Assembly: GCA_018660265.1 (NCBI GenBank)
Contig: JABJKS010000118.1
Location: 1-64,000, forward strand
Source: Rhodospirillaceae bacterium
GTDB taxonomy: Bacteria; Pseudomonadota; Alphaproteobacteria; GCA-2731375
Length of the DNA: 64,000 nt
Direction: 5' to 3'
Under the pieces are notes generated by a model. It saw only the letters and a program-made list of their open reading frames with translations. It searched no databases and was not told the origin of the DNA. Position numbers and translations under genes: made by a program. Of the stretch, positions 14,053 to 54,871 are shown piece by piece; positions within the stretch are counted from its first letter, which is position 1; each line of letters begins with the position of its first letter.

Positions 14053-14538
14053 TTACAGAATTTCCAGGATCGCTTGGGCCCCGCTTTTTTCGATGCCGCC
14101 TGGGTTCTCCTCAACCTCGACGGCGCTGACCGTGCCATCATCGATCACGATGGCAAAGCGTTGACAGCGTACGCCCATGCCGCGCGCGGTCAGGTCAAGC
14201 TCCAACCCCAGGGCTTTGGTATAGTCGGCACTGCCGTCCGCCAACATTGTAACCTTGTTCCCGACCTGTTGGTCTTTGCCCCAGGCCCCCATGACAAAAG
14301 CGTCATTGACCGACATGCAGCCAACCGTATCGATACCCTTGGCCGCCAATGCGGTATGATTTTCCACATAGCTGGGCACATGCTGGGCCGAACAGGTCGG
14401 CGTGAAAGCGCCTGGTAGGCCGAACAACACGACCTTCTTGCCAGCAAACATTTCGTCGGTTGAGACCGCTTCCGGTCCGCTATCGCCCATGGTCATTAAT
14501 GTGCCTGAAGGCATTTTATCGCCAACTGAAATCGTCAT
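14053..14538 (-). CDS. Peroxiredoxin of the Prx5/hybrid type
   Basis: ATG at 14538 follows GGGGAGAT by about 8 nt and starts the family at MTISVGDKMP (161 aa); an upstream in-frame ATG at 14589 adds 17 residues without homology. The peroxidatic site GLPGAFTPTCSAQHVPSY near residue 40 holds the conserved Pro, Thr and Cys of the Prx5 subfamily, and the Arg of the site is in GMGVRCQRFAIVIDDG. A second Cys (GCMSVND) could resolve as in atypical 2-Cys enzymes. It reduces hydrogen peroxide and alkyl hydroperoxides in the cytosol using thioredoxin or glutaredoxin/glutathione. It is the first gene before the HD-domain gene. Confidence 0.92.
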   Translation of the reverse strand: MTISVGDKMPSGTLMTMGDSGPEAVSTDEMFAGKKVVLFGLPGAFTPTCSAQHVPSYVENHTALAAKGIDTVGCMSVNDAFVMGAWGKDQQVGNKVTMLADGSADYTKALGLELDLTARGMGVRCQRFAIVIDDGTVSAVEVEENPGGIEKSGAQAILEIL

Positions 14539-14654
14539 TTTCGTAATCTCCCCGTTTTGTTTTATGTGTCCGGACGTCCCCGCGTCCATTCAATTCAAAG
14601 TGTCACAACGTTACCATATAACCATGAAAGGCCGGGATGCAAACGATGTGCCCA

Positions 14655-14684
14655 GAGAAATTATGAGAAATTATGAGAAATTAT
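14655..14684. repeat. Three tandem copies of a 10-bp unit
   Basis: GAGAAATTAT is repeated three times without mismatch at 14655-14664, 14665-14674 and 14675-14684. It lies between the end of the DsbD-type gene (stop at 14692) and the peroxiredoxin gene, both on the minus strand, so the copy number could alter spacing upstream of the peroxiredoxin promoter. Simple slippage during replication explains it. Confidence 0.9.
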
Positions 14685-14691
14685 GAAGCAG

Positions 14692-15585
14692 CTATGGCTT
14701 TGGCTTCAGGCTGTGCTCAATCGCGCGCGGGCCATCAACCAGGGTCAGGGTCAAGACTTGATCCGACAATTTGGTTTTTCCACGCCCCACGTAGATGGGC
14801 AAGGCCATGGCGACGTCATGGCGGTTGGCGCTGTAGGTCAGCTTTGGCCTGCCAAATCCGAAGGGCTCGGGCCCTTCCACCATCAGGTCCGGCGCCTCGA
14901 ACGGTTGGTCGGAATGGCTGTTGATTTGCAGAATTTGTTTGCCCGGCGGCCCGCTTATAGCGGCGCTGTCTATGGTCATACCGGTTTCGCCCATGGGGCC
15001 GGGTACACGGTCCAGATAACGACGGATCAGGGCCGGGGTTTTCGCGTTTCTGCTTGGTTTAAGAGAAGGTTCGAGGTGCAGGGCCAGAGCCGCCTGCATG
15101 GGGACGCACACATTGGCGCAGATCATATACGACAGTTTCAGCCGGGCCTTTATGGCCTGGGAGGGGGCCTTGGCGCGCAGCAGGACAGGCAGCACCACTT
15201 CTTTTGAATAGCCAAAACTATCAAAGCCATAGGCAGAGAATCGTTTTGGTGCCGGCCAGCGTATGTCCACCTCCCTAATGTTAGAAGATGCCTGCCAGTC
15301 GAACAGCGGTGGGGCACCGGATTCACCTGGATTACGCCAATAGGTCTTCCAGCCCGGGGCAAGCCTGACTTGTAAACCCAGCCAAATGCTGCCCCGATCG
15401 TCCACACCGCCGTCACCTGCAATCAGACGCACGGCGGCGTCATCGCTGCCTTGCCATGGACTTGCGATAGGTTCTGCGGTCGACGTGCTGGCAAATAGCA
15501 AAATGGCGACCATCAGCATAATCGGGTGCAGGCGCAGAATTTTCTGCAAAATATAGGTCGAAATTCGCATCATTGGTTTGGCCAA
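14692..15585 (-). CDS. Secreted DsbD N-terminal-domain-like protein
   Basis: This 297-aa protein has a hydrophobic leader (LHPIMLMVAILLFAS, about residues 19-34) ending near STAEP, so it is exported or anchored. After it comes the domain found at the front of DsbD/ScsB-type proteins: VRLAPGWKTYWRNPGESG near residue 73, FDWQASSNIREVDIRWPAP, then LSYMICANVCVPMQAALAL near residue 151. The two Cys in ICANVC are spaced as in the thiol-active DsbD alpha domain. The electron-carrying membrane domain of DsbD is absent. It probably takes part in periplasmic thiol reduction or cytochrome c or metal handling. It diverges from yqgE across about 110 bp containing a GGTTAATTAACC palindrome (15626-15637). 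Confidence 0.82.
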   Translation of the reverse strand: MAKPMMRISTYILQKILRLHPIMLMVAILLFASTSTAEPIASPWQGSDDAAVRLIAGDGGVDDRGSIWLGLQVRLAPGWKTYWRNPGESGAPPLFDWQASSNIREVDIRWPAPKRFSAYGFDSFGYSKEVVLPVLLRAKAPSQAIKARLKLSYMICANVCVPMQAALALHLEPSLKPSRNAKTPALIRRYLDRVPGPMGETGMTIDSAAISGPPGKQILQINSHSDQPFEAPDLMVEGPEPFGFGRPKLTYSANRHDVAMALPIYVGRGKTKLSDQVLTLTLVDGPRAIEHSLKPKP

Positions 15586-17822: not shown

Positions 17823-18680
17823 ATGAGGAAACTGCAGGAATTTGAACTTAGTCCCCAGCCGGATGACGAACGCCTGACCGAAGACGTCAGCGGCATTGAC
17901 CAGACTGGTGCCGCCGTGAATACCAGGGTGGTGGTTGAACAGCCGCTGACCTTGTATCTCAATGGCCAGGAAATCGTCACCATGATGACCATCGGCGATC
18001 ACCCTGATTGTCTGGCGGTGGGCTATCTGTTGAACCAGAATATGCTGCGTCCCGACGATACCCTGACCGGTATCGATTATGACGAGGAATTATCCGTGGT
18101 CGTGGTGCGCACGGAACGGGTCACGGATTTTGAGGAAAAGCTGAAGAAAAAGACCCTCACCTCCGGCTGCGCCCAGGGTACTGCCTTTGGCGATATCATG
18201 GAGCATTTTGACGAGGTCAAGCTGCCCGGTGATGCGTTGTTAAAGACGTCGTGGATTTACAGCCTCAGCCGCAAGATCAATCAACAGCCCAGCCTGTATC
18301 TGACCGCAGGCGCTATTCATGGCTGTGTTCTGTGCGCCGAAGACAGCCCCCTGATCTATATGGAAGATGTGGGCCGGCACAATGCGATCGACAAGATCGC
18401 CGGCTGGATGTTTTTAAACGGTATGACGGCGGCGGACAAAATCTTTTACACAACCGGGCGTCTGACATCCGAAATGGTCATTAAGACCGTGCGCATGGGT
18501 ATTCCCATTGTGATTTCCCGCTCCGGCTTCACGGCCTGGGGGGTGGATCTGGCGCGACAGGCGAATTTGACCCTTGTCGGCCGTGCCAAGGGGAAACGCT
18601 TTTTGTGCCTGGCCGGGCAGGATCGCATGATTTTCGATGCCAAATTAGACGCCAAATTCGATGACAAATTCGATAACTAG
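17823..18680 (+). CDS. fdhD: Formate dehydrogenase accessory sulfurtransferase FdhD
   Basis: This 285-aa protein matches FdhD: LNGQEIVTMMTIGDHPDCLA near residue 41, TLTSGCAQGTAFGD near residue 114, TAGAIHGCVLCAEDSPLIYM near residue 160 and EDVGRHNAIDKIAG, then TTGRLTSEMVIKTV and RSGFTAWGVDLA. FdhD transfers sulfur from a cysteine desulfurase to bis-MGD before cofactor insertion into formate dehydrogenase. No formate dehydrogenase subunit is in the window. The extreme C-terminus is an odd repeat (DAKLDAKFDDKFDN) coded by four 12-bp tandem units, and mobA begins inside it. Confidence 0.94.
   Translation: MRKLQEFELSPQPDDERLTEDVSGIDQTGAAVNTRVVVEQPLTLYLNGQEIVTMMTIGDHPDCLAVGYLLNQNMLRPDDTLTGIDYDEELSVVVVRTERVTDFEEKLKKKTLTSGCAQGTAFGDIMEHFDEVKLPGDALLKTSWIYSLSRKINQQPSLYLTAGAIHGCVLCAEDSPLIYMEDVGRHNAIDKIAGWMFLNGMTAADKIFYTTGRLTSEMVIKTVRMGIPIVISRSGFTAWGVDLARQANLTLVGRAKGKRFLCLAGQDRMIFDAKLDAKFDDKFDN
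18633..18680 (+). repeat. Four 12-bp tandem units at the fdhD 3' end and mobA start
   Basis: Units start at 18633, 18645, 18657 and 18669 and read TTCGATGCCAAA, TTAGACGCCAAA, TTCGATGACAAA and TTCGATAACTAG. They encode the last residues of FdhD. The ATG of mobA (18661) lies in the third unit and the TAG of fdhD ends the fourth, so the 20-nt gene overlap is built from the repeat. Confidence 0.9.
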
Positions 18681-39765: not shown

Positions 39766-40824
39766 GTGAATACCAAGCAACAGCATACGTTAAAAAATGC
39801 GATTAATTGTTCCGGCGTGGCGCTTCATAGCGGCGTAAAGGTTGCTATGTGCTTGCGCCCGGCAGCTGCCGATACGGGCATCGTTTTTCATCGTACGGAC
39901 CTCGACCCAATTGTCGTAGATGGGGTCGTAGATGGGGTCGTTGATGGAACCGTTGATCGCGGTGGGCTGCCTGCTGCAAGATCAGGCATTGATACGCTGG
40001 TGCCGGCCCGCTGGGACACGGTGAGCGATACGGTCATGTCGACGACCATCTGCAACGATGCCGGGGTCAAGGTGGCGACCATCGAACATCTGATGGCCGC
40101 CCTGGCCGGTTGTGGCATTGATAACGTTGTTGTGGAATTAGCTGGCCCGGAAGTTCCCATCATGGATGGATCTTCGGCCCCGTTTGTCTTTCTGATCGAA
40201 TGTGCCGGTCTGGAAATGCAACAGGCTCCTCGACGTTCTGTCCGCGTTTTGCGCCGGGTAGAGATTGACGAAGGGGATCGCCGTGCGGTGTTGCTGCCGT
40301 CTGATGGATTTTCAGTGTCTTTGGAAATTGAATTCGACAGCGCGGCAATCGTGGAAAAGTCCGGCTTTTTTGACCTTCACAATGGTGGCTTTAAGCGCGA
40401 CATCTGCCGGGCCCGGACCTTTGGCTTCGAGCGGGAGGTGAGCCGTTTGATGGACCTTGGCTTAGCCCAGGGCGGTTCTTTGGACAATGCGGTGGTTGTT
40501 GGCCGCGATGACGAGATCATGAACGAAGGTGGTCTGCGTTATTGTGATGAATTCGTCCGCCACAAGGTGCTGGATTGCGTCGGTGATTTTTATCTTGTCG
40601 GAGGGCCGATGCTGACCCATTTCGCGGGCCAGCGCACGGGCCATGCCTCTAACAACCGGCTGCTGCGCAAATTGTTCTCGGACCCGGCCAATTGGGAATA
40701 CAGCCACGAGGTACCCCAACCCTCTACGGAGCCCATGGAACACATGGAAATTTGGGATAGGCCCTCGAAAATGTCTGGGGTCATTGCTGGCAAGATTCCC
40801 GGCAAGATTGCCGCGACTGCCTAA
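39766..40824 (+). CDS. lpxC: UDP-3-O-acyl-N-acetylglucosamine deacetylase, with repeat insert
   Basis: No ATG fits. GTG 39766 starts the family sequence directly (MNTKQQHTLKNAINCSGVAL) and gives 352 aa; a TTG at 39745 is the alternative. Zinc and catalytic residues are in VATIEHLMAALAGCGIDNVV, PIMDGSSAPFVFLIE, FVRHKVLDCVGDF and RTGHASNNRLLR. The enzyme commits UDP-acyl-GlcNAc to lipid A. Compared with the E. coli text (305 aa), about 30 extra residues lie after FHRTDLDP, including VVDGVVDGVVDGTVDRG coded by 12-bp tandem repeats. The insert falls in domain I before PARWDTVSDT, away from the catalytic residues. Confidence 0.93.
   Translation: MNTKQQHTLKNAINCSGVALHSGVKVAMCLRPAAADTGIVFHRTDLDPIVVDGVVDGVVDGTVDRGGLPAARSGIDTLVPARWDTVSDTVMSTTICNDAGVKVATIEHLMAALAGCGIDNVVVELAGPEVPIMDGSSAPFVFLIECAGLEMQQAPRRSVRVLRRVEIDEGDRRAVLLPSDGFSVSLEIEFDSAAIVEKSGFFDLHNGGFKRDICRARTFGFEREVSRLMDLGLAQGGSLDNAVVVGRDDEIMNEGGLRYCDEFVRHKVLDCVGDFYLVGGPMLTHFAGQRTGHASNNRLLRKLFSDPANWEYSHEVPQPSTEPMEHMEIWDRPSKMSGVIAGKIPGKIAATA
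39913..39960 (+). repeat. 12-bp tandem repeat inside lpxC
   Basis: Four units begin at 39913, 39925, 39937 and 39949: GTCGTAGATGGG twice exactly, then GTCGTTGATGGA and ACCGTTGATCGC. They encode VVDG, VVDG, VVDG and TVDR at about residues 50-65 of LpxC. The unit length is a multiple of three, so copy-number change keeps the frame. Confidence 0.95.
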
Positions 40825-54807: not shown

Positions 54808-54871
54808 GGCTTTAAGTTGGCCGGGCTTTAAGTTGGCCGGGCTTTAAGTTGGTGCGGCTTTAAGTTGATGG
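54808..54871. repeat. Four tandem copies of a 16-bp unit at the 3' end of the MOSC gene
   Basis: GGCTTTAAGTTGGCCG occurs at 54808-54823 and 54824-54839 exactly, then with 3' changes at 54840-54855 and 54856-54871. The TAA stop of the minus-strand MOSC gene (54860-54862) lies in the last unit. The array looks like repeated duplication of that gene's 3' end, spreading into the space before the convergent DUF4167 gene. Confidence 0.95.

Follow-up and report, generated by a model that had tools for sequence, protein, structure and literature searches.

We consider it probable that the lpxC gene in the window (the whole 64,000-nucleotide stretch of DNA analysed here) encodes an ordinary LpxC with a tolerant surface loop in domain I that grows by in-frame duplication of 12-bp units, and that its short array of repeats is the newest growth. 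We favor a tolerant turn growing in this way because the conserved core, the low predicted order, the varied length and the small acidic content of the loop fit it. By sequence comparison, all species of the genus, and not the window species alone, have the long loop, and it shows a four-residue period; both points were overlooked in the initial annotation of this DNA. The features of the gene are as follows.

39766–40824, + strand: lpxC coding sequence, 352 amino acids, with a GTG start that aligns with GTG in five relatives of the genus
39745, + strand: TTG, the longer mechanical start of the lpxC reading frame
39901–40005, + strand: genus-specific hypervariable loop of 35 codons, residues 46–80, from RTD to ARWD
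39913–39924 and 39925–39936, + strand: units 1 and 2 (VVDG VVDG), identical 12-mers GTCGTAGATGGG
39937–39948, + strand: unit 3 (VVDG), GTCGTTGATGGA, with two synonymous differences
39949–39960, + strand: degenerate unit 4 (TVDR), ACCGTTGATCGC
40789–40813, + strand: second 12-bp duplication in lpxC, encoding GKIP GKIA within the variable C-terminal tail; no counterpart in the sister species

The identity of the lpxC product is backed by its Pfam match (PF03331, LpxC; E 9.7e-97, with 324.1 bits against a curated cut-off of 27), by a PDB sequence search and by the predicted fold, and it is the single LpxC match in the genome of the window species. The AF2 model, whose input of 20 aligned sequences took in LpxC genes from viral contigs, has a mean pLDDT of 83 and a pTM of 0.83; with six close sequences only, the mean pLDDT was 29.9 and the model useless. 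The model adopts the two-domain LpxC fold, with a VIA-align Z of 43.0 and an rmsd of 1.3 over 288 residues to LpxC of Pseudomonas aeruginosa (7k99_A). Residues E107, H108, H266, K267, D270 and H293 are invariant in all 30 aligned LpxC proteins, and three of them, H108, H266 and D270, presumably correspond to the zinc ligands of the Escherichia coli enzyme. Those ligands are given as H79, H238 and D242 in an excerpt of PMC13342928. The window protein is, on alignment and predicted fold, an otherwise ordinary LpxC with predicted deacetylase activity. It resembles the P. aeruginosa and E. coli enzymes in Pfam family, in fold (Z of 39.8 to 43.0 and 43–51% identity among the chains listed) and in metal-binding residues, and it differs from both in having a variable, repeat-bearing C-terminal tail. 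A further difference from P. aeruginosa LpxC is the length of the turn between RTD and PAR. The extra length had been put at about 30 residues, and phmmer against P. aeruginosa LpxC gives 27, with a break in which query residues 58–85 (28 residues, in the TTG-start numbering) stand opposite a single residue of the chain. The placement of this insert in domain I also holds, as the loop sits in the N-terminal half that forms this domain.

The repeat within the loop was described correctly in the initial annotation, both in coordinates and in sequence: four in-frame 12-bp units lie at 39913–39960, two of them identical, and read VVDG VVDG VVDG TVDR. Tandem Repeats Finder (TRF) delimits the array at 39913–39947, with a period of 12, 2.9 copies, 95% matches and a score of 63, a score that was reached by two of 5000 codon shuffles of lpxC and by none of 40 second-order Markov windows. 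The window holds five TRF arrays scoring at least 63, and 383 kb of sampled genome sequence, window included, contain 29 arrays scoring at least 50, among which the lpxC array ties for ninth place. The array is a real repeat beyond chance, yet it is unexceptional in its genome. An on/off phase-variable gene, which we considered as a candidate, does not describe it, as the 12-bp unit stays in frame inside lpxC.

LpxC is present in all 11 genomes of the genus, and in every one of these species the stretch from RTD to A.WD is long. It measures 35 residues in the window species and 23, 22, 22, 18, 23, 32, 27, 26, 42 and 21 in the other ten, which amounts to nine different lengths between 18 and 42 residues. 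Outside the genus, the loop has seven to nine residues in 18 of 19 loci and 16 in the remaining one (G029); the other two genera of the family with an LpxC match, G011 and G013, have nine. These lengths were read from the 30 genomes having loci among the 51 with an LpxC match, and by eye from the alignment for three loops (L013, L014 and L020). A class-wide search with the short-loop sequence of G011 as query covered 144 genomes, of which 121 matched. In all 120 matched genomes besides that of the window species, the match runs across the loop and its net excess never surpasses eight residues, a figure taken from the first row per genome (G075, G081 and G127 have two) and measured as net length over the match, so that an insertion balanced by a deletion elsewhere in the match would go unnoticed. 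The match of the window species breaks exactly at the loop. Within the sampled genomes of the class, the long loop at the RTD–ARWD site looks confined to the genus. We infer that the direction of change was a gain in the genus and not a loss elsewhere, on a tree that leaves G011 and G008 unplaced. The same comparison bears on the notion that the array stems from an error of assembly or sequencing or from an incorrect gene model, which was already disfavored and which we regard as barely credible. The assemblies of the 11 genus members are all drafts, with about 40 to 540 contigs each, and the five named records are titled MAG, as such an artefact would have it; the array is just 48 bp, however, and a long loop with an intact frame recurs at the same site in 11 assemblies of different species. 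Among the titles and abstract openings listed, none mentions a repeat loop in LpxC, which is no proof of absence.

The closest species to that of the window is G006 (tree support 95/97), and its loop has 23 residues vs 35. It reads LDASVVDGNIDRSETAKSDTLVP, compared with LDPIVVDGVVDGVVDGTVDRGGLPAARSGIDTLVP in the window species, so that a single VVDG followed by NIDR in the sister species stands against three VVDG followed by TVDR in the window, a tandem repeat whose copy number differs between sister species. It had been proposed that copy number could vary, with one fixed insert common to all relatives as the contrary outcome; when the relatives were aligned and the units counted, no such fixed insert was seen, and unit number and loop length vary between species. 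By eye, the VVDG–NIDR of G006 aligns best with units 3 and 4 of the window, and units 1 and 2 are, from this alignment, likely a gain in the window species. Beyond these two units, four further residues separate the two loops. The duplication that gave units 1 and 2 appears young, because the two are identical although 103 of the 235 third codon positions after the loop differ between the window species and G006. The initial annotation went further and saw in the array a length-polymorphic loop near the entrance of the enzyme; on this reading, copy changes within populations would affect how accessible the active site is or how sensitive the enzyme is to inhibitors. The in-frame unit, the identity of units 1 and 2 and the difference between sisters are what such a locus would show, but an array of no more than about three units is short for slippage to be rapid, and many similar arrays exist in the genome; we hold this proposal to be very unlikely.

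In the AF2 model, the loop lies between a strand at residues 39–43 and a strand at residues 78–80, with a short helix called at 48–51. The pLDDT falls below 50 at loop residues 52–73, as it does at the C-terminal residues 332–352. The loop, acidic and rich in small residues, looks disordered between two strands of domain I, low pLDDT being a prediction and not a proof, and it combines low predicted order with variable length at a fixed site, as a disordered hypervariable loop does. It ends, by our reckoning, about ten residues before the stretch that aligns with M61 and C63 of the E. coli enzyme. In E. coli, these two are inhibitor-contacting residues of the Insert I loop, and Insert I partly shapes the LpxC active site (excerpt of PMC13342928; for Insert I in general, an excerpt of PMC5454807). 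Within the loop, 54% of codons start with G, compared with 43% after it, and all 11 loops of the genus carry a net charge between −1 and −4. Some selection on loop content is likely because of this share of G-starting codons and the net negative charge in every loop; selection on loop charge or spacing is possible.

The loops of the genus share a four-codon period. Nucleotide matches at a lag of 12 amount to 0.375 across the 11 loops vs 0.312 in codon shuffles (none of 2000 reaching the observed value) and to 0.364 without the window species (fraction 0.0025), in tests that treat the species as independent. Matching at lags of 3, 6, 9, 15, 18 and 21 is not raised in the 11 loops. Loop by loop, the lag-12 excess is below 0.05 in four of the 11 (G000, the window species, together with G005, G010 and G001) and not in the other seven. 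With one species per clade, lag 12 falls below 0.05 in 28 of 36 resamplings; when the window species is excluded, it does so in 11 of 18. At the amino-acid level, lag 4 gives 0.001 for all loops and 0.052 once the window species is left out. In four of six sister contrasts, the length difference is divisible by four residues (binomial tail 0.038), a modulus test chosen after the loops had been seen; the tests of the period as a whole took shape in this way, on a small set. G010, G007 and G002 differ by lengths that are no multiples of four. A hairpin register that would require even steps was tried as an explanation and is unsupported, with six even and five odd lengths among the 11 loops and five of six sister contrasts even (tail 0.109).

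The recurrence of acidic and related residues at this spacing raises a different explanation, that the loop is a selected, flexible acidic arm with Asp or Asn at every fourth residue, which binds a partner or an ion or tunes LpxC activity and whose sequence is free to drift while spacing and charge are kept. Asp or Asn recurs 15 times at lag 4 (7.1 expected) and 15 times at lag 8 (5.8 expected) and is not raised at lags 3 and 5 across the genus loops, in shuffles that again treat the species as independent. When one species per clade is drawn, 32 of 36 samplings put the excess below 0.05 at lag 4, and 32 of 36 do so at lag 8; with the window species excluded, lag 4 stays below 0.05 in 14 of 18. 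Asp alone gives 0.008 at lag 4 and 0.0027 at lag 8. Negative charge in every loop and a shortest loop of 18 residues, with the short turn in no member of the genus, agree with such an arm, as does the standing of LpxC as a regulatory target. In E. coli LpxC is controlled by proteolysis and in Pseudomonas by MurA (excerpts of PMC9995270 and PMC12444477), and MurA–LpxC interaction scores high, as predicted binding, in a subset of the Rhodospirillales (excerpt of PMC9995270). An equal period would be expected, however, if all loops descend from one 12-bp array; the loops range from 18 to 42 residues with little alignable sequence and low predicted confidence; and the grouping of Asp with Asn was chosen after the loops had been seen, with Asp alone giving 0.056 at lag 4 (0.004 at lag 8) without the window species. 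We judge a selected acidic arm unlikely, if worth weighing. Less likely again is its more specific form, a genus-specific regulatory arm that would work through spacing and not through sequence, with acidic residues at intervals of four whose register is preserved because the arm changes mostly by whole 12-bp modules; LpxC regulation, through MurA or another partner, would then be set by adding or removing modules. A regulatory partner for the loop is speculation.

The period is best ascribed to the LpxC loop itself, where it either goes back to a single early array or is maintained by selection, because a genus-wide bias toward 12-bp duplications was not established among exact tandem duplications sampled over 1459 kb from the genus and 816 kb from four genomes outside it. 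Lag-12 duplications make up 14 of the 67 found in the genus and 3 of the 46 found outside it (Fisher 0.058), and 7 of 54 in the genus when G005 is set aside (Fisher 0.33). Two other counts, from a smaller sample, lie closer to a bias: 17 vs 5 12-bp duplications per Mb, and, as a plain sum, 15 of 68 TRF arrays with a period of 12 in three genus genomes vs 5 of 72 in four others. G005 supplies eight of the 13 in the former and eight of the 15 in the latter. Overall duplication density is no higher in the genus, at about 46 vs 56 per Mb. In the G005 sample itself, a 12-bp unit occurs in 7 of 13 exact tandem duplications, or 35.8 per Mb vs 0–16.4 in the other genomes.

To place the loop among its neighbors, we compared the 23 window proteins around lpxC, of which 16 sets, LpxC included, had orthologs in at least four species of the genus and the remaining seven in fewer than four. 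Only LpxC (nine), FtsZ and a RodZ-like protein (eight) show at least eight length classes between conserved blocks among these 16 sets. The C-terminal part of FtsZ has two variable stretches, with nine and eight length classes, and MurB has a smaller one with four. Flexible linkers are known or likely in both FtsZ and RodZ, and the C-terminal linker of FtsZ is disordered and varies in sequence and length. In this genus the LpxC loop, like that linker, falls into many length classes between conserved blocks, but the FtsZ segment is a tail linker and the LpxC segment an internal loop; of the three proteins, LpxC alone varies inside a compact enzyme domain. Low-complexity regions of prokaryotes are short, biased segments for which DNA slippage is one source, according to an excerpt of PMC6821194. 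The LpxC loop is also a short, biased segment and differs from such regions in general in being tied to a single site of a single enzyme and in having a 12-nt period across the genus. Three other repeats of the window are listed here.

18633–18674: 12-bp in-frame array in the tail of FdhD (FDAK LDAK FDDK FDN), fdhD being at 17823–18680
14655–14686: perfect 10-bp repeat GAGAAATTAT, 3.2 copies, between a redoxin gene (14053–14589, − strand) and a DsbD_N gene (14692–15585, − strand); the unit is not a multiple of three
54808–54867: 16-bp repeat GGCTTTAAGTTGGCCG, 3.8 copies, flanked by the stop of a DUF4167 gene on one side and the end of a convergent MOSC gene on the other; the top-scoring TRF array of the window

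The FdhD array is like that of LpxC in being 12-bp, in frame, tetrapeptide-encoding and variable across the genus, and it differs in lying at the C-terminal end and not in an internal loop. The FdhD tail differs in each of the 11 species and reads DSHADSHAAKHADSHD in G010.

Growth of a tolerant loop by 12-bp duplication would have run as follows. At the base of the genus, the usual turn of seven to nine residues would have lengthened, as its distribution suggests, and afterwards loop length would have changed repeatedly, often by four codons. The likely mechanism is polymerase slippage or misaligned recombination, by which 12-bp units would be duplicated in tandem or lost, and only length changes divisible by three would survive because the gene is needed. 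Loop length itself would be nearly free of selection, with the flanking strands and catalytic residues fixed. The window species probably gained two 12-bp units (24 bp) on top of a shared VVDG–xxDR core. That LpxC is essential in this organism, as the initial annotation assumed, we can only infer, because LpxC is not found in every member of the family: the LpxC profile had no match in the same-family genomes G012 (98% complete) and G014 (81% complete), nor in G026, G051 and G053 of the same class, and four of these five genomes are 98–100% complete.

LpxC, a UDP-3-O-acyl-GlcNAc deacetylase, commits cells to outer-membrane sugar-lipid synthesis and is a conserved, heavily studied antibiotic target. 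The variation of the loop is probably tolerated and not a new mechanism, and a fast-changing domain I loop with a preferred module size in one clade marks where the enzyme tolerates change. If tolerance is all that is at work, the loop is a tidy example of nearly neutral growth; in either case, it is a clean one for following module-wise growth inside an enzyme, and its natural variants could be used to test whether this face of LpxC binds regulators.

Two observations concern LpxC beyond the loop. Matches to lpxC also occur on IMG/VR contigs as long as 215 kb (L148–L159), several of them near-identical between samples, and may reflect either cellular contamination or real cargo. The C-termini of the 11 LpxC proteins of the genus read [VI]A.TA after a spacer of variable length (40765–40821 in the window), and this nonpolar C-terminus recalls the position of the E. 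coli FtsH degron (excerpt of PMC12444477).
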